From assembly GCF_001748285.1 (NCBI RefSeq), contig NZ_BDGT01000027.1, forward strand, positions 1 through 64,000: 64,000 nt of DNA. The letters run 5' to 3'. This stretch comes from Thermogemmatispora onikobensis. Lineage in GTDB: Bacteria; Chloroflexota; Ktedonobacteria; Ktedonobacterales; Ktedonobacteraceae. The position numbers and the translations under genes were made by a program. A model generated the notes under the pieces. The model ran no database searches and was not told the origin of the DNA. It saw only the letters and a program-made list of their open reading frames with translations. Shown one piece after another: positions 24,633-38,695 of this stretch; the first letter of the stretch is position 1, and every line of letters begins with the position of its first letter.

Positions 24633-24639
24633 TAGCCTG

Positions 24640-25785
24640 TCAAGCCAGTTGCTCAAGTACCCGGAAATCATGGGGATGGAGCAAGACCCAGATCCTCTTA
24701 CGCCTAGCGGGGGCACGTACCAGTGTCCCCGTCACGCTGACCAGGCGTCGATCGCGATGAGCATCGCAAGCAAGTGCATACTGGGAGGATTCGAGGGAGA
24801 GGTGCAGAGTACCCAGTTCAGGACTTTTCAGGCGTACCTGTCCTCGCTCTGTATCCTCCCAGTGTAATTCAGTGATCACGCCAGTGATTGTCTGCTCCTT
24901 TCCACTGCTTCCATCCTGGCTGGCTCGCAGGAGCTGAGCAGCCTTTTCAAGGTAGGGGATTGAAGAGCGATGCAGCTGCAAGGGAGGAAGATGAGAGAGG
25001 TCACTAGGAGCAGACAAGAGAGGCGACCAGCTAACAGAGTACTCCACGGCGGTATCACCAACCACCCTGAGCATTTCGGCAACCGCGCTGCACATATTGG
25101 CATTCAATCCTTCTGAGTAGTGCTCGACTAGAAGTCGATCATCTCCTGCCCGAGCTGCAGTGCTAAGCATGAGCAGTCCTCTCGTAATCCGCTCGACGAC
25201 CCTCCTTCCAAGAGGAATGGGAGATCCTTCCAGAGAGGAAAACGGCAGCTGCCCTTGCTCACTGGTCACCGGGGCCTGAAGTACAAAACCGAAGCTCGAT
25301 TGATAGGTGTGACCGAATTGGAAACGTCTGGTGAACCTCCTGGCAGTAGCGGTTGGCTGCGCGAAATAGCGCTGTCCTATCAGTTCCATACAAGCAGAAA
25401 AGATAACCAGGTTTCTGCAGCCACTCAAGAAGGAAGACACGGTCTCTAGCGAGGGCAGCTCTGAGGATGAAATAAGCAAGCGCAAGTAAATGGCATCAGC
25501 ACTGGCTGCTTGAATGCGGCTAATGAGGGTGGTTGGAGGTACATGCTCAATCTCCGCCAGTCTGTGCAGAGCTTCGGTCAGGCGCAGCTCGGCTCCTCCC
25601 AGATCCTTCGAACGCGGTAACGCAATGAGCATCGGCTCACCCAGCTTATTGGCCGGACCGGCAAAGACCAGCAGCTGCTGGTCACTGTACTCGATCTGAC
25701 GCCAGCCATGCGCTTGCAGGTAAGCCTGGACATCGGCAATGCTCACCAAGTCAAGCGGGAGCTCCTCTAACGATCTATGCATCAT
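24640..25785 (-). CDS. Uncharacterised protein with C-terminal OB-fold-like domain
   Basis: I cannot assign this 381-residue protein to a named family. The N-terminus (VSIADVQAYLQAHGWRQ, then LLVFAGPANKLGEPMLIALP) looks like a small alpha/beta domain. The middle is helical. The last 85 residues (from EQTITGVITELHWED) have an alternating beta pattern ending in LVSVTGTLVR and HDFRVLEQL, which suggests an OB-fold and hence nucleic-acid or protein binding; this is inference. Its ATG overlaps the DUF4365 stop by four bases, so it is translationally coupled to the nuclease-like gene. It is the last gene of the helicase/transglycosylase run. Confidence 0.75.
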   Translation of the reverse strand: MMHRSLEELPLDLVSIADVQAYLQAHGWRQIEYSDQQLLVFAGPANKLGEPMLIALPRSKDLGGAELRLTEALHRLAEIEHVPPTTLISRIQAASADAIYLRLLISSSELPSLETVSSFLSGCRNLVIFSACMELIGQRYFAQPTATARRFTRRFQFGHTYQSSFGFVLQAPVTSEQGQLPFSSLEGSPIPLGRRVVERITRGLLMLSTAARAGDDRLLVEHYSEGLNANMCSAVAEMLRVVGDTAVEYSVSWSPLLSAPSDLSHLPPLQLHRSSIPYLEKAAQLLRASQDGSSGKEQTITGVITELHWEDTERGQVRLKSPELGTLHLSLESSQYALACDAHRDRRLVSVTGTLVRAPARRKRIWVLLHPHDFRVLEQLA

Positions 25786-26345
25786 AACCTTACCTTCGCT
25801 TGCGCCTCATCAAGCAGGCTGAGCAAGACTGCTTCCGTAAAGAGGTTCGCTTTAGGGATATAGATTGTTTTAGATCTTACCTGATCAATTTCAACACGTC
25901 CTTGAGGCTTCCAATAGTAACAACACTTGTAGATGCTCAGGCATTCCTCACTTTGATGCAGCCAGTGATCAATACTTGGTGGCAGGCAGAGTAGTAATAG
26001 AACAGAAAAGATGCTGTTCACGAGCTTGCGATAGTTTTTTGCAGGGAGATCATAAACGATATAGTCTCCTCTGAGGCGGTAGTTGCGCGAGGCTTTCAAT
26101 TGCGCATCTACCATCATGCTGCCACTATCGTCGATCTCGCCGTCGATTATCCTTGGCCTACGAAAAGAAATATCGATGCCATAATCCCTCTTCAGGAGCG
26201 AGTAATTGACACCAGCTCTGGCGGCAAGAGCCAGGACATATGCCAGGCTGAGCTCCTCGGCACGATGGGCCTCTGGCATCATCGAGGGTGTAGGAGGCGA
26301 GGGCGAAGCGGGAGAGAAAAGGTCGGCCCTCTCTTCAGTTGCCAT
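25782..26345 (-). CDS. DUF4365-like protein, putative PD-(D/E)XK nuclease fold
   Basis: The 187 residues match the DUF4365 pattern. An acidic strand (RDYGIDISF) is followed by a strand ending in Q-x-K (MVDAQLKAS). Then come YIVYDLPAKNYRKLV, a hydrophobic strand with LLCLPPSIDHWL, and an aromatic YYWKPQG. The D...Q-L-K arrangement is a variant PD-(D/E)XK nuclease core, so a DNA-cleaving role is plausible. Proteins of this kind are frequent in defence islands. The ATG has AGGAG seven bases upstream and lies 34 bp after the helicase gene. The cluster context suggests it acts with the helicase on incoming or unmodified DNA (inference). Confidence 0.72.
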   Translation of the reverse strand: MATEERADLFSPASPSPPTPSMMPEAHRAEELSLAYVLALAARAGVNYSLLKRDYGIDISFRRPRIIDGEIDDSGSMMVDAQLKASRNYRLRGDYIVYDLPAKNYRKLVNSIFSVLLLLCLPPSIDHWLHQSEECLSIYKCCYYWKPQGRVEIDQVRSKTIYIPKANLFTEAVLLSLLDEAQAKVRL

Positions 26346-26379
26346 GGCTCAACTCCTATCCTGAACCTATCAGGCGGCT

Positions 26380-29300
26380 TTAGAGAAGGAAGAGCGCCCA
26401 CTCCTGTTCTTGACGATCCAGTGGCCAGCAAGCCACAGTTTCCAGTCCCAGACTGGCTGCTTCAGCGTGTAGCTGATCAACCTCGCTCCGCGAGGTACGG
26501 CGTAGCAGCTGCCGTACGAGGGCCTCCCCCACGCGGCGACTGACATATGGCGCTTGCCTGTAACGTCCTCGGCAGCAAGTTGTGACATAGATACAGACAG
26601 GACAGCCATCGTGTGCGTGGCAGGAGAGTTTGCTACTCTCGTCCTCTGCAAGCTGGTCGCCGCCATACTGACGGGTCCATTCTGCCTCGTCAGCAATCTG
26701 ATCGATGACCACCTGCCCCGAGAACGTCTGGGCAAGGGGTTCCATGGGTCCAATGGACAACAGCCAGCTGCGCGCAAACTCCTCACGCCAGCCCTGCTCC
26801 ATTGGCTGCTGGGGGTCCTCTGCCAGGTTAATCGGGCAAAGCACAGAGGCCAGCAAGGCTTGATAGACTTCCCTCGGTCGCGTTTTCAGGGCATGGGCAA
26901 ACACCTCCGAGAGTCCAGCACCGCCCTCATAGCCTTCCCAGACAACTACCTCACACCGCTGGACATCATACCAGTACTCCAGTGCCTGCTCATTGACGCC
27001 ACTCATAGTAGCAATAGTTTTGTAGAGCATATGAGCAGCAGTATGGAGAATCAGCTCGCTGTCCAGATGCTTGGGCTGCCCCTGTACCTTGATCTGGCCA
27101 AGCTCCTGGTGGAGCTGCTGATCAGTGAGTAGCGTCGTGACGAGATTCTGAAGCTGCCAGCGAATCCCATCGGTAGTGAGGTCGTAGCGCAGGGGGATCT
27201 CATAGCGAGCCAGGAAGGAGAGCGGTGGCCTCTTTTGCGGAACATAGTGCCCGTTGGCTTCCGGAAGCATCCGACGCGCGGAGACCTCTGCCCCTTCGAC
27301 TATCGTCACGCCTTTCATGGTCTTAAGAAGACTGAGGGAGAAAGTGAGTCGTCGCTCTGCTGGGCCAACCGTGTAGCTGCGCTTTATCACCGGAGATGCC
27401 TGCAACGTTACGTAACGAAGCTGCGAGTCACAGCAGTGGCGTGTACGACTGATACTATAAATCATGCGACAATTCTCGCACATCTTAACGACTTGCTGCC
27501 CTTGCTTATCCGTCTCTAAAGTTCTTACAGAGACCTTATATGGCGCGAAAAACTCGGCGTGATGCAATCCCTCAGCCCCTCGAAGCCGAATGGTGATTTC
27601 GTGGTCGCTACTTCGCTCCGGGAGAGGGACAACGTCTATGGTTGAGATATGACGAGCGTAGTAGCGATAGAGCGTTCTGTAAGGAGTGAGCGCATTGGCA
27701 AGTACGCCGATGTTCTCTAGCTCAACCTTGGTTTCGGGCTCTACTCCCTCCCCTCTAACCAGGCTGGCATTGACAAGAATTGGCTTTGTGGCCAAGAAAT
27801 AACCCTCTGGCAAGAGATACTCCACCCTGTAATTGCAAGCGTTGTCACTAATATCGTCCAGGTGGAGATAGAAGCTAGCCTGCAGCACAATTTTCATAGC
27901 CTCAGGTGGATAGCGAAGGATTCTCTTATCCTTAAAAAGCTCTTCTAGTTTGAAAAAGAATTTGTATAACCTTTCTACATCACTAAAATTTTTTATTCCG
28001 TTATCAGCAACATTTTTCCACAAATCAGCCATTCTACTAATTATATATGAGATCCTTTCAATGGTATGTCTGTCTTTAGTACTATACAGAAGATGCGACA
28101 GATAGTCATTCATCTTGAGGAAATGTCGTGAGATCTCCTCAGAGGAGGAATCCTCTTGCTTTAGGAAATCCAGGCTCAAACGTGCAGTTTCTTCCAGTGT
28201 GCATATTTCATCTTCTACATGATCTATAAGTGATTTTATCCCTAATTTATATTCCAAATCTACTTTATTGATATTTATCCACTTTTTCAAAAATTTCAAC
28301 TTTTCCTCTAAAGATGCGTCACTATATTTAGTTATATCATTTTTATAATATTGATTAATTATACCACAATTACTAATATTATCCCAGATCCATTGCAGCA
28401 ATCCTTTCTCCACCTTGTGCAGAGAGGTATAGGCAGCTAATTCCTTCCGCTTTCTTGAGATGATACCATGTATTGAGGAGATAACAGGATTGTCAGTCTT
28501 CAGCGGCAGCTCGTAGCTGCCCTCGATCAGCCGCCTGTAATGGCGGAGGTAGAAATGGCTAATCGGGGAGGTATCCAAGACCAGCATGCTATAGGCAGTC
28601 GAGCGCCAGCCCCGACCGGCTCGGCCACGCCTCTGAATAAAGGAAAATAGAGTGTGAGGAATAAGATACTGGATGACAGCTTGAATACGACTATCATCAA
28701 CGCCAATTTCAAAAGCTGCCGTAGCTAGTATAATATCCTCGTCGTAATGAGCGGCTTTAGCCTTAGATGTCACTTCCACTATTTTCAATGGTTGTATATG
28801 CAGATCAGGGAGTTCGCTGGTGCACTGCCCGCCTGCAGGCAGGCCACGCCAGCACTCGCCCTGCTCATAGATGCGACAAGAGGCTGGAGCTGTACGCGGA
28901 CACCGACGCTGGTTGAAGCAGAGCTGTTCCAGGTTACAGCGAAATGACCAGAGCCGGCGCTGCTCCTCGGCATCGCTGATCTGCGCACGGAATCTGCCGA
29001 CCATATCCAGGGAATCACAGAAGACGGTGCTTCGCCCCTCTCCTCTGAGAAGGGCATGACCCACGGCCATCACTGTCTGAATCAGTAAGGAGGAGGCCTC
29101 TACCCGCTCTTCGGGCTTCTGCAAGACATAGAGTAGCTCAAGGCCTGTCGGTACGCTGCTGTCATCTTCAGCCTTATGCACAACAAGCTGGTCAGACTTC
29201 CCTCCATAGAATAAGTTGGCGGCAAACCTCTCAGGCTCAAGAATAGTTGCACTTGCTGCTAACTTGGCAAGCGCTTGACCATCTCTGAGTTCCTCAAGGC

Positions 29301-30438
29301 GCCTCAGCATATGATGGATATGAGATCCGTAGATTGAGTGATAGACGTGAGCCTCATCAAGTACAATACCAGCTATAGATTTGATGTAGTTCTCAAACTT
29401 CTCTAGAGGATATATAGATATTTGATCAAAGGATTCAGCAGTCGTAATCAGCAGATGCGGCATCAGATCGGCATGATAGTTCCTTCCAATAGAGATATGA
29501 AAATTTGCTCCACAGCTATTACATTTCAATAGCGTATTCTTCCTGTTATTGTATTTTTTAGGATCTAATTCGTAATGGCCTTTTTTACAAATCACACATT
29601 TATCTATATATCTGAATGTATAACCTTCAAAGATCTCACTGTTTTCAAGGGCAGACTCGGGGTCTGGTCCCACCCCACCAAACTGGAAACCTATCGTGAT
29701 ACGTTTCCCTTTAGGAGGGACAGCCCCACCCCAGAGGCTCTTTAGGCTTATTTCCAACTCGGCGCGATACACATAGCGCAGGGCCCGCTCCAGTTGGTCC
29801 TTCAGCAAGGTGACTCGCGGATAGAGCAGAACGAAGCGCGGCACCTGATTGGCAGGTACTTCTTCCGCCAATTGGCGAGTAATCTCATAGATAATAGGCA
29901 GCAAGAAAACCTCAGTTTTACCGCTCCCTGTGGGAGCAGTAATCACCATACCCTGACGATGGCGGATGACTTCCAGCGCTTTTTTCCAGCCCTCGACTTG
30001 GAAAGTAGAGACACGGAGTTCCCCCTCTCTAGCAGCGGTGCTACTGTCCTGATGCTGCTGCTCCTCTTCACTGGGCCTCAAGAGTCGAGCAATCATCTCA
30101 AGCTCTCCTGGCAGATCTTCCAGGCGAAGAAGGCGCGGCGGTCGCCGCCTTACCAGCGCTTCCATACGCATATGCTCCACCAGTGATCTCGACGGCCCCA
30201 ACGCATCGAAGCGCTGTCGGAGCTGCTTCAGAAGGCGAACAAGTTCTATCGCCCGAGGCAAAAGGATGTCTCCTCCCAGAGCAACGAATTCCTCCCTCAG
30301 CTCTTCCCTCTTACAGAGAGGCTCTATACGCTGATGATAGCGTTCCCAGAGCAAGTTTGGCGGGGGAAAATCGCGAGCGGTTATGATATCTCGCATCATA
30401 TCCTGAAGCAGGTCCCGCATCTCCTCATAGGGGGACAT
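26380..30438 (-). CDS. Large DEAH-box helicase with C-terminal cysteine cluster (MrfA/YprA/DUF1998-like)
   Basis: The protein has 1352 residues. Walker A (TAPTGSGKT) is near 165, the DEAH box (VLDEAHVYHS) near 360, motif III (AASATI) follows, and motif VI (QRRGRAGRGW) is near 600. Two CxxC pairs between motifs I and II (CVICKKGH and CNSCGANF) suggest an inserted zinc knuckle. The C-terminal third contains HTAAHMLYKTI, an EGYEGGAGL motif and a terminal CPVCIYVTTCC cluster. This is the plan of COG1205/MrfA-like DNA helicases and of helicases in DISARM and dpd islands. The ATG at 30438 has AAGGAGAAGG upstream. The open frame runs 111 codons further into the neighbouring gene, but that extension is noise. 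Residues about 680-830 are encoded by strikingly AT-rich DNA, a sign of transfer. Confidence 0.88.
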   Translation of the reverse strand: MSPYEEMRDLLQDMMRDIITARDFPPPNLLWERYHQRIEPLCKREELREEFVALGGDILLPRAIELVRLLKQLRQRFDALGPSRSLVEHMRMEALVRRRPPRLLRLEDLPGELEMIARLLRPSEEEQQHQDSSTAAREGELRVSTFQVEGWKKALEVIRHRQGMVITAPTGSGKTEVFLLPIIYEITRQLAEEVPANQVPRFVLLYPRVTLLKDQLERALRYVYRAELEISLKSLWGGAVPPKGKRITIGFQFGGVGPDPESALENSEIFEGYTFRYIDKCVICKKGHYELDPKKYNNRKNTLLKCNSCGANFHISIGRNYHADLMPHLLITTAESFDQISIYPLEKFENYIKSIAGIVLDEAHVYHSIYGSHIHHMLRRLEELRDGQALAKLAASATILEPERFAANLFYGGKSDQLVVHKAEDDSSVPTGLELLYVLQKPEERVEASSLLIQTVMAVGHALLRGEGRSTVFCDSLDMVGRFRAQISDAEEQRRLWSFRCNLEQLCFNQRRCPRTAPASCRIYEQGECWRGLPAGGQCTSELPDLHIQPLKIVEVTSKAKAAHYDEDIILATAAFEIGVDDSRIQAVIQYLIPHTLFSFIQRRGRAGRGWRSTAYSMLVLDTSPISHFYLRHYRRLIEGSYELPLKTDNPVISSIHGIISRKRKELAAYTSLHKVEKGLLQWIWDNISNCGIINQYYKNDITKYSDASLEEKLKFLKKWININKVDLEYKLGIKSLIDHVEDEICTLEETARLSLDFLKQEDSSSEEISRHFLKMNDYLSHLLYSTKDRHTIERISYIISRMADLWKNVADNGIKNFSDVERLYKFFFKLEELFKDKRILRYPPEAMKIVLQASFYLHLDDISDNACNYRVEYLLPEGYFLATKPILVNASLVRGEGVEPETKVELENIGVLANALTPYRTLYRYYARHISTIDVVPLPERSSDHEITIRLRGAEGLHHAEFFAPYKVSVRTLETDKQGQQVVKMCENCRMIYSISRTRHCCDSQLRYVTLQASPVIKRSYTVGPAERRLTFSLSLLKTMKGVTIVEGAEVSARRMLPEANGHYVPQKRPPLSFLARYEIPLRYDLTTDGIRWQLQNLVTTLLTDQQLHQELGQIKVQGQPKHLDSELILHTAAHMLYKTIATMSGVNEQALEYWYDVQRCEVVVWEGYEGGAGLSEVFAHALKTRPREVYQALLASVLCPINLAEDPQQPMEQGWREEFARSWLLSIGPMEPLAQTFSGQVVIDQIADEAEWTRQYGGDQLAEDESSKLSCHAHDGCPVCIYVTTCCRGRYRQAPYVSRRVGEALVRQLLRRTSRSEVDQLHAEAASLGLETVACWPLDRQEQEWALFLL

Positions 30439-30458
30439 GGCCTTCTCCTTTCCAACAA

Positions 30459-32321
30459 CTAGCCGTCTGCCTGTTCGAGCTGTATGAGAATGGAAGCAAC
30501 GAGCTCCTCCAGATACTCCCGGCGAAAGAAGGCGGTCAGTCGACGGGCTTTCGGTTTGCAGGGCAGCACCTCCAGCCGGCCCGTGCGGCGCGCCGCCAGC
30601 TCCATCGCCTGCCGGTAAGCTCGACTCGTCGCATACCCCAGGCAGGCCACGTAGTGCTCTCCCCAGCGCTCCAGATAGCGAGTCAGCCGCCCGGCAACGA
30701 GCTCGATTTGCTGCTGGTTGCTTCCCTCCAACCGGAAGTCGTAACCCAGCACTTCTGGGGCCTGCTCCCACTCCTCGGGCACCGGCCCATACAGGCCCGA
30801 GAGCGTCACCCAGTGAATGCCGTGCAGCTGCTCACCAAGTGCCGCCTGCAGCCGCTCTCTGACGTAGCGGTGCGTGCGCGACTGCGAATAGGGTTTCTCT
30901 CCCGAGCAGGGCAACACCAGCAACAGGCGCTTGTCCACCGGGGGAGCATAGCCATTGCTGACGATGTTGAATGCCTCGGGGGTGTAGGCCAGGGAGACGG
31001 CCCGACGGCCACCGGTCCCCGCTGGCAAGCTGGGCTGACTGGTCCCACCAAACGAACGCCTCGAGCCGAGCCGGCGCAAGCGCTCGTCTCGCTGCTGAAG
31101 CCGGGCCAGAGCCTCTCGGAGGCGCTCATGCCCCTCCACCCAGCGCAGCAGAAAGTCCGCCAGGGCGTCTGCTGCCACCGCCTGGCGCACCTCCTCCACC
31201 AGGCGGAGATCTTGCTCGAGATTGTGCAGCGCCACCTCGGCATAATAGCGGCTCTTATAGGACCCGTTCTCTAATGGGCGACCCGCTGGGGTGAGGGATG
31301 TCAGCCCCGCCTGCAGCTCCGCGAGCGAGCTGGTCTGACACACCGGGCAGCTACAGGTCCACTCTTGCAACTCCAGGACCGGCACAAAGTGGTGCCTGAC
31401 TGGATCGTGATAGCGCAGGCTGCGCGCCATCTGCACGTAGGTACTGGAGTCAAAGGTATCCACTCCAAGATAGGCGAGCAGCGGGATGAGCGTGCCTGTG
31501 ACCCCAAACAGGTGCACCGGGGTCGTGGGCCGCTCGGCTGCCGGAATGCCCTCGATGGCGGCCTGCACCAGGTCGATGATGGTCAGCAGCTTCTCGGCCC
31601 CCCGCAGGCGCAACGGCACCAGCGAACCGATGGCAATCCCCAGCGGGATGCGCTGCAGTCCCTCGGCCTCGCGCAGCGCAAAGACGCGCTGCACCGCGTG
31701 GCGCAGGTCGTCGGGGGTCTGCCCATGGACCGCCGCATACACGAACGGGGGAGGGCCAGACTGCTCCGCCAGCAGGCGCAGGGTGATCCCCACATTGGCC
31801 AGACTGCGCGCCATACGCGCCTCGGCCTCTGCGCGCACCAGCCCGGATGGGAGCGGATAATCGAGGGTGGCAAGGAGACTGGCCCCGAAATCCTGCTGCA
31901 GGTGAAGAATGGTCTGCGGCGTGGCCTCCAGTCCATAGCGCGAGAGGTCCAGCTGGCTGTTCCACAGCAGCCGGAAGCCTCCAGAGTCACAGAAGAGAGG
32001 CGCCCGATAGTGCAGCTCAGGAAAGGCGGCCTGATAGTGCTCGCGCAAGGGGCGCTGCCGCCAAAAAGCCAGCCACTTGGGGCGAATGGAAAAATCAAGG
32101 AAGTGGAGGACCTGGGTCATGATGGGCCTCTGCTGGCGCAGCAGCCCATGTGGATGAGCCTGCAGCACATATTTCCAGATTCCTCCTCCGCGCGGCGTGG
32201 TGCCTGTGATCAGGGAGGCAACAGGAAAGAGTGTCGGCGTCTCCAGATCTCCTTCGCTGAGTCGAAAACATCCAGAACGCGGACCCCTCTCGCGGCAGCC
32301 GCGGAATCCCACAGTGGTCAT
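30459..32321 (-). CDS. DpdA/ArcTGT-like 7-deazaguanine transglycosylase with C-terminal ArcS-like domain
   Basis: The 620-residue protein begins with a TGT-type fold (LETPTLFPVASLITGTTPRGGG near residue 25). The catalytic aspartates are present: CDSGGFR near 110 and GVDTFDSS near 287. The zinc site CSCPVC is near 325. The last 160 residues open with LLLVLPCSGEKPYSQSRTHR and contain LSGLYGPVPEEWEQAPEVLGYDF, the pattern of the DUF5591 core of archaeosine synthase. TGT enzymes swap guanine for a 7-deazaguanine; DpdA members do this in DNA. ArcS adds an amine-bearing group to preQ0. The DNA-target reading rests on the neighbouring helicase and nuclease-like genes; a tRNA target is the alternative. 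ATG 32321 or an in-frame TTG at 32354 may be the start. Confidence 0.85.
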   Translation of the reverse strand: MTTVGFRGCRERGPRSGCFRLSEGDLETPTLFPVASLITGTTPRGGGIWKYVLQAHPHGLLRQQRPIMTQVLHFLDFSIRPKWLAFWRQRPLREHYQAAFPELHYRAPLFCDSGGFRLLWNSQLDLSRYGLEATPQTILHLQQDFGASLLATLDYPLPSGLVRAEAEARMARSLANVGITLRLLAEQSGPPPFVYAAVHGQTPDDLRHAVQRVFALREAEGLQRIPLGIAIGSLVPLRLRGAEKLLTIIDLVQAAIEGIPAAERPTTPVHLFGVTGTLIPLLAYLGVDTFDSSTYVQMARSLRYHDPVRHHFVPVLELQEWTCSCPVCQTSSLAELQAGLTSLTPAGRPLENGSYKSRYYAEVALHNLEQDLRLVEEVRQAVAADALADFLLRWVEGHERLREALARLQQRDERLRRLGSRRSFGGTSQPSLPAGTGGRRAVSLAYTPEAFNIVSNGYAPPVDKRLLLVLPCSGEKPYSQSRTHRYVRERLQAALGEQLHGIHWVTLSGLYGPVPEEWEQAPEVLGYDFRLEGSNQQQIELVAGRLTRYLERWGEHYVACLGYATSRAYRQAMELAARRTGRLEVLPCKPKARRLTAFFRREYLEELVASILIQLEQADG

Positions 32322-32424
32322 ATTCTTCCCATCTTCACCCTCATATTTGTGCAAAAAGGCAGGCTCTCCTTTCCGGGGACGGCCATCGGTTTCCTCTGAC
32401 TTTAGAGGCTACTTTTTAAAAAAA

Positions 32425-32453
32425 AGTATACTTCGTTCTCTTTGAAAAGGCAA
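32425..32453 (-). promoter_or_regulatory. Probable promoter of the transglycosylase-helicase-nuclease run
   Basis: On the minus strand TTGCCT (32448-32453) and TATACT (32425-32430) are 17 bases apart, a near-consensus sigma-70-type promoter. It would start transcription about 95 bases before the transglycosylase ATG. Immediately downstream is an A/T-rich symmetrical tract (ACTTTTT...AAAAAGT). Confidence 0.6.
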
Positions 32454-32595
32454 GCTGCTCTACATTTTCGAGCCATTTGCTCCTCGCACATTAATGGCAA
32501 TACCCCCAAACTTCCCGACTCTTTTTGAACTGAGCTGCCTCATTCCTGACCTGCCAGCGATTGCCACTATACACCTCCCATAGATTAGCTAGTTT

Positions 32596-32618
32596 GCTCT
32601 CGCCGTGGGGGCGAGAGC
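32596..32618. repeat. Perfect 9-bp GC-rich inverted repeat
   Basis: GCTCTCGCC (32596-32604) and GGCGAGAGC (32610-32618) flank a five-base loop. No T-run follows on the plus strand, and on the minus strand AAACTAG follows, so it is not a standard terminator. It lies 143 bp upstream of the transglycosylase promoter. Confidence 0.6.
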
Positions 32619-33284
32619 CTTACTTATTGCCAATTCGCAGCTCGCTTGGTTCCGCAATCAAGGAAGGCAGGGCACATGGCGAGCACGACCTCACCTCTGC
32701 CAGGCCAGGATAAGACTGCCCAGTATTGCATACAAAATCCAGCCGTCCGAGAAAGCAGTGGCTCTTGAGACACAGCCAGCTGCCAATCGGACGGCAGGAA
32801 GGCGCGAGAGCACAATTCTGCCAGGTGAGACACAGGCGAGCTAGCTTCACCCCTCATTCTCAGATTGTCTCTGCCTGTGTGCTAAGTCGCTAGAGCCACT
32901 GAGGCCACTAGAAGCACTGCCCTCCGAAGGTATTACTCGCATGCCAGCTTGCTGCGGCGATTTGGCTATAGCCGCCGTTTGACGGGCGGCACAGCGTGGG
33001 CAAACCAGCCGTGGCAGCCTCTCTTTCAGCCAGATGGGTGGCGCGGTCGCAGCAAACACAATCGATCTCCCCCTTTGGGGCCTGCAGTCCCAGGCAACGA
33101 GAGCCCCGATTGCCTGACCAGACAAGCAGGCAGGAATTGCCGCTGTTCTGCGTCTCTCCTCTAAGGAGGACACGCGCCACCATCTGACAACTGACAGAGC
33201 ACTCCCGAAAGTACCGGTTCACTCCCTCCTGGTCGCTTCTGCTTCTGCGCCTTCTACGGCGAACTCTCTTCTCTTCCCAGGCTC

Positions 33285-35633: not shown

Positions 35634-36728
35634 CTAGCTAAACAGGACAGGCATGGTCAGATCGCTGTAGGTGCCTTTCCTTCGCCCTTCCGACCCATAG
35701 ACCACAATCTTCCCCTTCTCTTCCAGCAGGCTCAGGCTCGACTTATACTTGAAAAATGCGGTATCGGCAATAACAAATTCTTCGATATCATCAACAGTAA
35801 CTCTTTTTCCTCTAAAATGATCGTAAATCTCTTTAGCCAGAATTGCTGGATCATCGTTATGAAGCAAGAATCCCTGTCCCATTCCTGTACAGTCGGAGAA
35901 GACAAAGTTACCCGTTGGGTCAACCTTCCACATCGCCCGTTTCATCTCTTTCATCCCTCGACGATGCTTTGTGGCAAAGAAGAGAAAATAATCAGTTGTA
36001 TTTCTACTATTGCGCATACAGAATGAGCGCACGTAGCGAGCGCCAGCGACAGTTAAGAGCTGCTGGCGATAGAGGTCGTGCAGGCGCCGCTGCCGTGTCT
36101 GGACATCGGGGGCATCAAGGGTGATTGTCTGCCATGCGGTGGTACCGAAGAGGGAGTCATAATGTTGCTGCTTGGTCCTGTAATCAGCTTCCAGAAAACG
36201 ATTGATTTCCTCATGCATGAAGGTGATCAAGACCTCACAGCGAGGGCAGGCCATCAGGTTGCGAATAACATCCATAGGTGCATGGGAGAAGCCAAATGGA
36301 TCGATAAAGACAAACATGGCATCATAGCGCCTGCAGCCGCTAGCCAGAAGACTGGTCATTGCATCTACAAATCTGCCCGTATATACCTCGTAGGTCGCTG
36401 TGGACGGCAGCGGCTGGTACTGCAGATGGGCCTGGAGCTTCTGTCGAAGATGAGCCGCCCGCTTTGGATCAAGCTCCACAAAGAGAAACTTCACTGTACC
36501 CCGTTGGAGAGAAGCAGCACGATGCTGCTGATACGCGCTGATCATAATGAGCGGCGAGCCGATTTCTCCTCCAACGTACTCCCCCGGACCGGCAAAACCA
36601 TCGATCAGCAATCCGCTTCTTCCCTCACGGATAAGGATCGGGAGCCAGGCATCCAGGTATTTGCGCAGAATGACGTGTTTCGCACGCGTGTGATCATCCA
36701 GCTTCCAGATCACTGACTGCGGAGCCAT
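35634..36728 (-). CDS. tcmP: Three-Cys-motif partner (TcmP) family protein
   Basis: The protein has 364 residues. The start (VIWKLDDHTRAKHVILRKYLDAWLPIL) and LLIDGFAGPGEYVGGEIGSPL near residue 40 are diagnostic of TcmP. FVELDPKRAAHLRQKL and FVFIDPFGFSH near 139 follow. D-G-F-A-G-P-G and D-P-F-G sit where a Rossmann methyltransferase has its SAM site and its DPPY motif, so an enzyme acting on nucleic acid is plausible but unproven. The C-terminus (KRVTVDDIEEFVIADT...) looks like a winged helix. TcmP genes typically neighbour a protein with a three-cysteine radical-SAM-like motif; here such a gene lies 264 bp upstream. ATG 36728 has AAAGGAG. Parts of the gene are AT-rich. Confidence 0.82.
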   Translation of the reverse strand: MAPQSVIWKLDDHTRAKHVILRKYLDAWLPILIREGRSGLLIDGFAGPGEYVGGEIGSPLIMISAYQQHRAASLQRGTVKFLFVELDPKRAAHLRQKLQAHLQYQPLPSTATYEVYTGRFVDAMTSLLASGCRRYDAMFVFIDPFGFSHAPMDVIRNLMACPRCEVLITFMHEEINRFLEADYRTKQQHYDSLFGTTAWQTITLDAPDVQTRQRRLHDLYRQQLLTVAGARYVRSFCMRNSRNTTDYFLFFATKHRRGMKEMKRAMWKVDPTGNFVFSDCTGMGQGFLLHNDDPAILAKEIYDHFRGKRVTVDDIEEFVIADTAFFKYKSSLSLLEEKGKIVVYGSEGRRKGTYSDLTMPVLFS

Positions 36729-36992
36729 TACGCGCTCCTTTCTAGCTCGCCGCTTCTGGCCATCCCCTCCCTGGACAAGACGAGTCACACCACCCTCCTC
36801 AGCCAGGCCCTTCGGAGACAGCGAAGCAAGCAGTATACGCCGAGATCAGAGCTTGCAGCACTCCTCGGATCTTCAAATTTTTAATAAACAAACCGCACTA
36901 TCAGTTTTATCTCTCTCTCTATCGGAGTATACCTAATGACAGGTTCTTTGACAAGAGAAAATCTCCTAAGATAATCAAGCGAGCATTAAAAT

Positions 36993-38453
36993 CTACTTCT
37001 GTAGAGTGTGATTGATGACAGGAAGCGGGCCGCGCTGTAGCTGAGCACGGAGCCGATAGCTGATGTGGCAGGCGCAGGGCATGCTGCTGATCACCCCGGC
37101 TTTGAGGAACTGCAGGGCTTCCCGTGGGTCCGCCTTGCAGGGGGTGGTTTGCACCTGGCCGAGGCCGTAGCGCTCCAAGAGCAGCCGCACCCACTGGTAG
37201 AGCCGTTGCTGCCGCGCCGCCGACGGGCGATATTTGTGCGCCACCACCGCCGGCTCCAGCTCAGCGAGCAAGGGCGTCACCTGTTCCTCGGGCAAGCTTG
37301 ACTTGAGCAGCCGTGGCATCTGCGGCGAGAAGCGCAGAATATCCACGGTCATCCGCTTGAGCCGCGGCCCCAGGATGTCGCGGATCTGGGCAAACAGCTC
37401 GTGATAGGCCGCGCGGTAACCCGCCACGGGAATGATTGGCCCCAGCCGGATCGTATGATCGAAGGCGCCATGATCAATAGCCCAGGCCAGGCCGCCCAGG
37501 CGCTCCTCCGGAAGGGCCCCGCCCGGCTCAAACTGCGCCGAGATGACTGCCGGGTTCAGGCTGATGGCCACGAGGGCCAGCCGGCCATCGAGCTGCAAGT
37601 AGGGCTCGTAGACCCCCTTGGTCAGGAAGAAGGAGACGATCCCGCGCGCACTGGAGAGATCCAGAATGGTCTGCACCAGCGAGCCGCGCCCCTGCTCATC
37701 GACGAACCAGGGATCTTCCTCGACAGGGCCGCCCAGTTCCGCCCAGTTGACCACACTGCCCCGCGGCAGACGGTCCAGCTCGGGGATGACGTCTTCCAGA
37801 TTGAGCGCCACGCTCTTGAGACCCATCCCCTGTAGGCCGCGCAGGTAGCAGAAGCTGCATTCGACCGGGCAGACGCCCTGGGCGTAGTTGCCCCGCAGGA
37901 AGCCGCGAATCGGTTCGGCCTCCCGCTCCTCCTCGCGGGAGCGGGAGCCAGCGATCCAGGTCTGGCGACCCCGACGGTAGGCCACAATCGGCGTCCAGGC
38001 CCCACAGGTCGTGCCAGCCCCACCGACAAAGGGGGCAATGAACTGCGGGGTGCCGGCCCCGCCGCGCCGAATGAGCAGGAGGAGACGCGCCTTGCGCTGC
38101 GCTTCATCCTCGGCGGGCCAGAGCTGCCGATGCAGCGTCAGCGCCTCACGTGCCACCTCGCTCCGACTGCCGAGACGCCGCAGATGGACCGCCGCCACCA
38201 GCGGCGCCAGGCGCTCCGCGGCGGCGCTCGCCTGCTCTTCTTCCTGCCGGCTGTGGGCGTGCAGCAGCAGGTGAGCGGGACGCGCCGGCGCCAGCCGGCG
38301 GCGATTCGCGAGCAGGCGAGTCGCCCGCTCGCCCGCCACACCACTGGCCACGGCAGCGTCCAGGACCACCAGATCAATCTCCGCCAGCCGTCGGAGCATC
38401 GATGGCTCCCCCAGCATTCTCTCTTTTTCACAAGTTATATGCTGCGTCATCAT
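36993..38453 (-). CDS. Spore-photoproduct-lyase-like radical SAM protein
   Basis: The protein has 486 residues from the ATG with AGGAG eight bases upstream; the open frame extends 30 codons further without support. The iron-sulfur motif is C-P-V-E-C-S-F-C (about 191-198), within NYAQGVCPVECSFCYLRG. This is the CX3CX2C spacing and context of spore photoproduct lyase, COG1533. ISLNPAVISAQFEPGG resembles the SPL radical-SAM barrel. The N-terminal 170 residues are Ala/Arg-rich and unlike SPL. SPL-type enzymes repair a thymine photoproduct in DNA, so a nucleic-acid substrate is a reasonable guess. As the first gene of the island and neighbour of tcmP it may be the three-cysteine partner. Confidence 0.8.
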   Translation of the reverse strand: MMTQHITCEKERMLGEPSMLRRLAEIDLVVLDAAVASGVAGERATRLLANRRRLAPARPAHLLLHAHSRQEEEQASAAAERLAPLVAAVHLRRLGSRSEVAREALTLHRQLWPAEDEAQRKARLLLLIRRGGAGTPQFIAPFVGGAGTTCGAWTPIVAYRRGRQTWIAGSRSREEEREAEPIRGFLRGNYAQGVCPVECSFCYLRGLQGMGLKSVALNLEDVIPELDRLPRGSVVNWAELGGPVEEDPWFVDEQGRGSLVQTILDLSSARGIVSFFLTKGVYEPYLQLDGRLALVAISLNPAVISAQFEPGGALPEERLGGLAWAIDHGAFDHTIRLGPIIPVAGYRAAYHELFAQIRDILGPRLKRMTVDILRFSPQMPRLLKSSLPEEQVTPLLAELEPAVVAHKYRPSAARQQRLYQWVRLLLERYGLGQVQTTPCKADPREALQFLKAGVISSMPCACHISYRLRAQLQRGPLPVINHTLQK

Positions 38454-38695
38454 CGAGTACTCTCCTTGTAGTAGCGCCCCTGGCCTCCCCCATCCCTCCT
38501 TGCCCCTCCAGAGCCTGCGGCTCTTCCGTGGCCGATCGTACAAGTTGACAATAAATCGAATATTTGTTCAAGATCGTCTTAATTATACCCGAGCACGAGG
38601 ACGAAGTCGAGAGAGCAGAGACAACGGGCTAGAAAAACATCAGCGAGCACCCATCTGGCCCCCTGAACGCCCCCCATTTTGGCCCAGTTTCCATC

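Follow-up and report, generated by a model that had tools for sequence, protein, structure and literature searches.

Bacterial Dpd systems, whose components are named DpdA-K, place dPreQ0 or dADG in DNA. The archaeal archaeosine synthase, ArcS, is built from a DUF5591 core and an N-terminal half that resembles a TGT and is degenerate. Some phages, such as 9g and nt-1, use a TGT together with either ArcS or Gat-QueC to produce 7-deazaguanine modifications of their DNA. The presence of TGTs in defence loci is already known, both from Dpd and from the BREX-related capture (BRC) systems, in which neither DpdB nor DpdC has been reported and the term ArcS does not appear (PMC12839542). The family described below shares with BRC the recruitment of a TGT to defence loci that carry HerA translocases.

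The window analysed here, a stretch of 64,000 nucleotides from the thermophilic bacterium Thermogemmatispora onikobensis, carries a gene in which a TGT domain with a complete active site is joined to an ArcS core (Table 1). Judging from sequence comparison, this fusion quite probably serves as the modifying enzyme in a compact cassette for restriction-modification that resembles Dpd. As in Dpd, a TGT-family enzyme is encoded beside a DpdJ-like helicase and is combined with a putative nitrile-modifying enzyme, and in the haloarchaeal loci with such a fusion the helicase gene is followed by one for a phospholipase D-like protein. Unlike in Dpd, the TGT half is ArcTGT-like and falls outside the DpdA clade, an ArcS core stands in the place of DpdC, and four genes are present where Dpd may have as many as eleven, with DUF4365/PDC-M02B for the rest of DpdD-K and without DpdB (none of the four genes matched the DpdB or DpdC models). 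The fusion resembles archaeal ArcS in its DUF5591 core and in having a TGT-like N-terminal half, but this half has kept both catalytic aspartates, and a Pfam search gave no PUA match. It further differs from the ArcS/RaSEA pathway in being part of an accessory bacterial cassette, in a genome where RaSEA was not found. In the literature searched, we found no mention of the ArcS-core fusion, of the ArcTGT-like defence lineage or of the four-gene cassette, and no paper named DUF5591 or paired DpdA with it; the search was not exhaustive and an earlier mention is possible.

Table 1. Position of the TGT-ArcS cassette, its genes and the neighbouring radical SAM gene in the window.
Feature	Coordinates	Strand	Basis
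TGT-ArcS fusion gene	30459..32354	(-)	Pfam TGT + DUF5591, motif alignment, AF0587 match; no PUA domain
Accessory cassette, 8.3 kb, exactly four genes	24637..32970		Empty-site comparison, GC
DpdJ-like DEAD/DEAH helicase, 1352 aa	26380..30438	(-)	PADLOC + NCBIfam DpdJ
PDC-M02A, DUF4365 protein, putative nuclease	25782..26345	(-)	Pfam DUF4365 51.7 bits; PADLOC PDC-M02A 168 bits
PDC-M02B, partner of DUF4365 protein	24640..25785	(-)	PADLOC PDC-M02B 904 bits
Radical SAM protein, spore-photoproduct-lyase-like; outside system	36993..38543	(-)	NCBIfam SPL E 2e-5

The boundaries of the cassette follow from its empty site. Two Thermogemmatispora genomes that have no fusion show the flanks corresponding to positions 24,636 and 32,971 only about 475 bp apart, and exactly these four genes have therefore been gained or lost together. 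The GC content is 0.544 inside the cassette and 0.613 in the remainder of the window. Its genes are closely packed, with the ATG of the helicase (at 30438) located behind GGAAAGGAG and ~20 nt past the stop codon of the TGT-ArcS gene, while the genes for PDC-M02A and PDC-M02B overlap by 4 nt. Because the operon is tight and the empty site clean, we regard the four genes as one mobile unit.

The helicase scored 213 bits with the PADLOC model for DpdJ and 193.6 bits with that of NCBIfam (NF041067), which is below the cut-off of 800, so that it is a relative rather than an equivalog. In Ktedonobacteria, it occurs only where the fusion is present, one weak match excepted. Homologues are also found in both haloarchaeal fusion loci, each directly followed by a phospholipase D-like gene which we take to be of the DpdK type. 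A GID...VDAQLK stretch in the DUF4365 protein appears to resemble the motif of PD-(D/E)xK nucleases. As the PDC-M02A/B pair also stands alone, without a TGT, in other Chloroflexota, its membership in one system with the fusion is uncertain.

The open reading frame of the fusion starts at a TTG (32354), which has a Shine-Dalgarno sequence (GGAAAGGAG) upstream, and codes for 631 aa; the alternative ATG at 32321, used in the first-pass annotation, would give a protein of 620 aa. The TGT domain occupies residues ~14-430 (Pfam: 73.0 bits over residues 116-410, cut-off 26.3) and the DUF5591/ArcS core residues ~452-600 (Pfam: 54.5 bits over residues 465-573, cut-off 26). When aligned to Pyrococcus ArcTGT (1iq8), D123 of DSGGFR corresponds to Asp95 and D302 of VDTFDSS to Asp249, and the zinc ligands C334, C336, C339 and H377 are all kept. 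This confirms the earlier proposal of a TGT half with both catalytic aspartates and the zinc site. The ArcS-core motif PCSGEKPYSQSRTH is likewise intact, with an exact PCSxxKPYxxSxxH at residues 482-495. The C-terminal domain matched the archaeal ArcS-core structure AF0587/2q07 (hmmsearch E 5e-11) with an hhalign probability of 97.6%, versus 2.7% and 0.7% for two DUF6884/DpdC-type domains, each represented by a single sequence. The first-pass annotation had considered this half to be ArcS-like and had suggested a comparison with ArcS as a check; profile comparison indeed places the domain inside DUF5591/ArcS. AlphaFold2, run on the window protein with a two-sequence alignment, returned a mean pLDDT of 38.9.

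The same architecture was found in nine homologous fusions from Ktedonobacteria and haloarchaeal plasmids, with identities down to ~35%, so that it cannot be attributed to chance. The catalytic Asp pair and the zinc residues of the TGT domain are invariant in all of them, as is C-S-x-x-K-P-Y-x-x-S of the ArcS core. Departures from the remainder of the motif are seen in two fusions, one with ACS replacing PCS (G116) and the other without the final His (G328). DUF5591 was detected in 5 of 47 genomes of the host class and in 6 of 400 genomes of the phylum Chloroflexota, and in five of these six it is part of a fusion. The sixth match (G058) was ruled out as a TGT fusion since its domain stands alone. 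There, the ArcS-core-like domain (PCTKTKPYPLSLEH) lies in the C-terminal part of a minus-strand frame (9231-12965 of L027) and is surrounded by genes of the hydantoinase/amidohydrolase and nucleoside-type ABC transporter kinds; together these may form a cluster for the salvage or breakdown of deazapurines.

Full-length fusions with 34-38% identity occur on two haloarchaeal plasmids, one in Natrinema and two in Haladaptatus, the archaeal breadth having been sampled from plasmid records only. Viral contigs and phage records were scanned for full-length homologues without a match, which sets the family apart from the modification genes of phages 9g and nt-1. The scan of genome contigs returned T. 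carboxidivorans only, a species that likewise has the cassette, and the window genome is near-identical to this species in synteny.

A second copy of the fusion, absent from the first-pass annotation, is present in the same genome (C29:10383-12380, L005), where it resides within a mobile element and is ~92% identical to the window copy. The similarity is unevenly distributed, with 98-100% identity at alignment positions ~450-900 and ~1200-1350 and 58-79% at the 5' end, and the middle parts of the two copies are closer to each other than either is to T. carboxidivorans. Given near-identical middle parts and a diverged 5' end, it is likely that cassette and mobile element have recombined recently.

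If both halves act as their families do, the preQ0 would be supplied by the host's own queuosine pathway, and genes for QueC and QueD were found in the genome. The ArcTGT-type domain would exchange selected DNA guanines for preQ0, and the ArcS core would then attack the nitrile of the inserted base, by which the mark would be both locked in and enlarged. By family precedent this second step would most likely be a lysine transfer, leading to 2'-deoxy-preQ0-lysine, with hydrolysis to dADG as the main alternative. ArcS from Thermococcus transfers lysine on short RNA fragments and even to the preQ0 nucleoside (PMC11298593), so the chemistry does not depend on tRNA. Once lysine has been added, ArcTGT no longer exchanges the base, which means that lysine addition blocks the reversal (PMC11298593); for this reason the fusion, which would couple insertion with locking of the mark, would make the exchange irreversible. 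The DpdJ-like helicase and the DUF4365/PDC-M02B pair would act against unmarked DNA. We tentatively propose that one bifunctional enzyme introduces preQ0 into bacterial DNA and then adds lysine, with 2'-deoxy-preQ0-lysine serving as the self mark of a four-gene restriction system whose modules are common to Chloroflexota and haloarchaea.

It is also conceivable that DNA is modified but that the DUF5591 core hydrolyses the nitrile as DpdC does, resulting in dADG (or in dPreQ0 only), as in canonical Dpd. We consider hydrolysis the main chemical rival because the products in phage nt-1 are mixed: this phage has an ArcS homologue, for which an amidohydrolase role was proposed, and in its DNA dPreQ0 predominates, accompanied by dADG and only small amounts of dG+ (PMC6884629). 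The motif drift in G116 and G328 points in the same direction and, with two of the nine fusions lacking the complete ArcS motif, the second activity may not be the same. On the other hand, the profile of the domain is ArcS-type and not DpdC/DUF6884-type, and the window protein has retained the full motif. A precedent from a Dpd locus for joining a TGT to a nitrile-modifying domain is provided by a Halorientalis plasmid (L013:8931-11834), where a canonical DpdA is fused to a DUF6884/DpdC domain. The gene for this DpdA-DUF6884 fusion adjoins folE, queC, queE and a queD-type gene.

That DNA is the substrate of the TGT-ArcS enzyme is likely by association, as its genes are found with the DpdJ-like helicase, with DISARM, with NurA-HerA and in mobile elements. 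One fusion gene is convergent with DISARM drmA-drmB (G188), another begins 14 nt after nurA-herA (G328), and a third is near conjugation-type ATPases in an element (G116). The element with the second copy in the host (C29) contains a primase, a polymerase, a C5 methylase and a serine recombinase. The fusion genes of G116 and of C29 look solitary, so that a restriction partner is not present at every fusion locus; this and the lack of DpdB in the cassette count against a Dpd-like reading. Solitary copies in mobile elements, and the occurrence of the PDC-M02 pair alone elsewhere, would also be compatible with a fusion that is mainly an anti-restriction modifier of mobile elements, as in phages, and with a helicase and PDC-M02 pair that form an unrelated defence module. 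We think that this is unlikely, in view of the operon spacing, the common cassette boundaries and the repeated pairing of a DpdJ-like helicase with the fusion, in bacteria as well as archaea. A further assemblage was observed on the Haladaptatus plasmid (L012, 1102-19619), where an 18-kb island has three TGT genes, two of which are ArcS fusions, along with DUF6884, phospholipase D-like, DpdJ-like and MkoA-like genes.

A tree built from 25 TGT-family sequences placed the fusions in one group (85/88) close to haloarchaeal accessory TGTs and ArcTGT, with canonical DpdA separate from them (99/97). A family profile of the fusions matched 1iq8 with an E-value of 7e-35, and ArcTGT was the best match of the TGT half in both the structural database and the profile comparison. 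The fusions differ from ArcTGT (TgtA) in their fused core, in the lack of a detected PUA domain and in the replacement of Gln169-Gly170 by HG and of Gly195-Gly196 by GS, which is common to all nine fusions and the haloarchaeal accessory TGTs. These positions presumably contact the base, as in TGT structures, and the pocket His is also present in one canonical DpdA (Enterobacter). The fusion protein missed all three NCBIfam equivalog cut-offs, scoring 13.4 bits with the DpdA model NF041059 (cut-off 200; there was no PADLOC DpdA match either), 94.2 bits with the ArcS model NF040592 (cut-off 440) and 99.4 bits with the TgtA model, far under its cut-off of 350. Because of this, and because the TGT half is ArcTGT-like and apart from canonical DpdA, the protein is, as judged by these models and the tree, neither a canonical DpdA nor an ArcS nor a TgtA.

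The proximity of the TGT half to the tRNA-acting ArcTGT, rather than to canonical DpdA, is a further point against a Dpd-like reading, and could mean that the enzyme acts on tRNA in a bacterial modification resembling the archaeosine pathway, its cassette neighbours being incidental. However, it is improbable that an enzyme of this kind would have so accessory a distribution (DUF5591 of any type in 6/400 Chloroflexota), would recur in defence and mobile contexts and would have no PUA domain; moreover, two ordinary TGTs encoded in the genome (on C16 and C17) are available for tRNA. The one on C17 (83594-84664, L002) is a second bacterial-type paralogue, with FDSAMPTR for FDCVLPTR, the main one being on C16; in the tree it groups with the ordinary bacterial TGTs, apart from the fusions.

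The first-pass annotation had combined the fusion with a nearby radical SAM gene to suggest an archaeosine-like base in bacterial DNA. The radical SAM link was not borne out, as the gene matches models of spore photoproduct lyase only and is not part of the cassette; all six Thermogemmatispora genomes sampled have it, and four of these, among them those with the empty site, are without the fusion. Beside it is a gene for a three-Cys-motif partner protein (35634-36788; TcmP, PADLOC PDC-M30A), and the radical SAM/TcmP pair was rejected as a pathway partner for the same reasons. RaSEA (TIGR01210) had no match in the host genome, which is ~95% complete, while control archaea were matched, and none was recognised beside the other fusions in a non-systematic inspection of the ORF lists. 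What stands of the suggestion is the DNA target, which is strongly indicated by context, but not archaeosine as the product, with RaSEA missing. It is thus very unlikely that archaeosine (G+) is made in DNA, be it with the help of a radical SAM enzyme or through a direct amidotransfer, even though dG+ is known from the DNA of phage 9g (PMC6884629) and the radical SAM gene is just 4.6 kb away. The product would rather be a preQ0-lysine deoxynucleoside, if the chemistry of ArcS is conserved.

The fusions represent a second TGT lineage in defence loci, one that is near the archaeal tRNA enzyme, has a His and a Ser in its pocket and is joined to an archaeosine-synthase core. If our reading is correct, the DNA of both bacteria and archaea would contain a 7-deazaguanine decorated with an amino acid, and a single fused protein would provide a one-enzyme route to it. 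A compact cassette would, moreover, make it possible to test what ArcS does in phages, a question that earlier work has left open (PMC6884629). Our data suggest that bacterial DNA contains an as yet uncharted hypermodified guanine by which self is told from foreign DNA.
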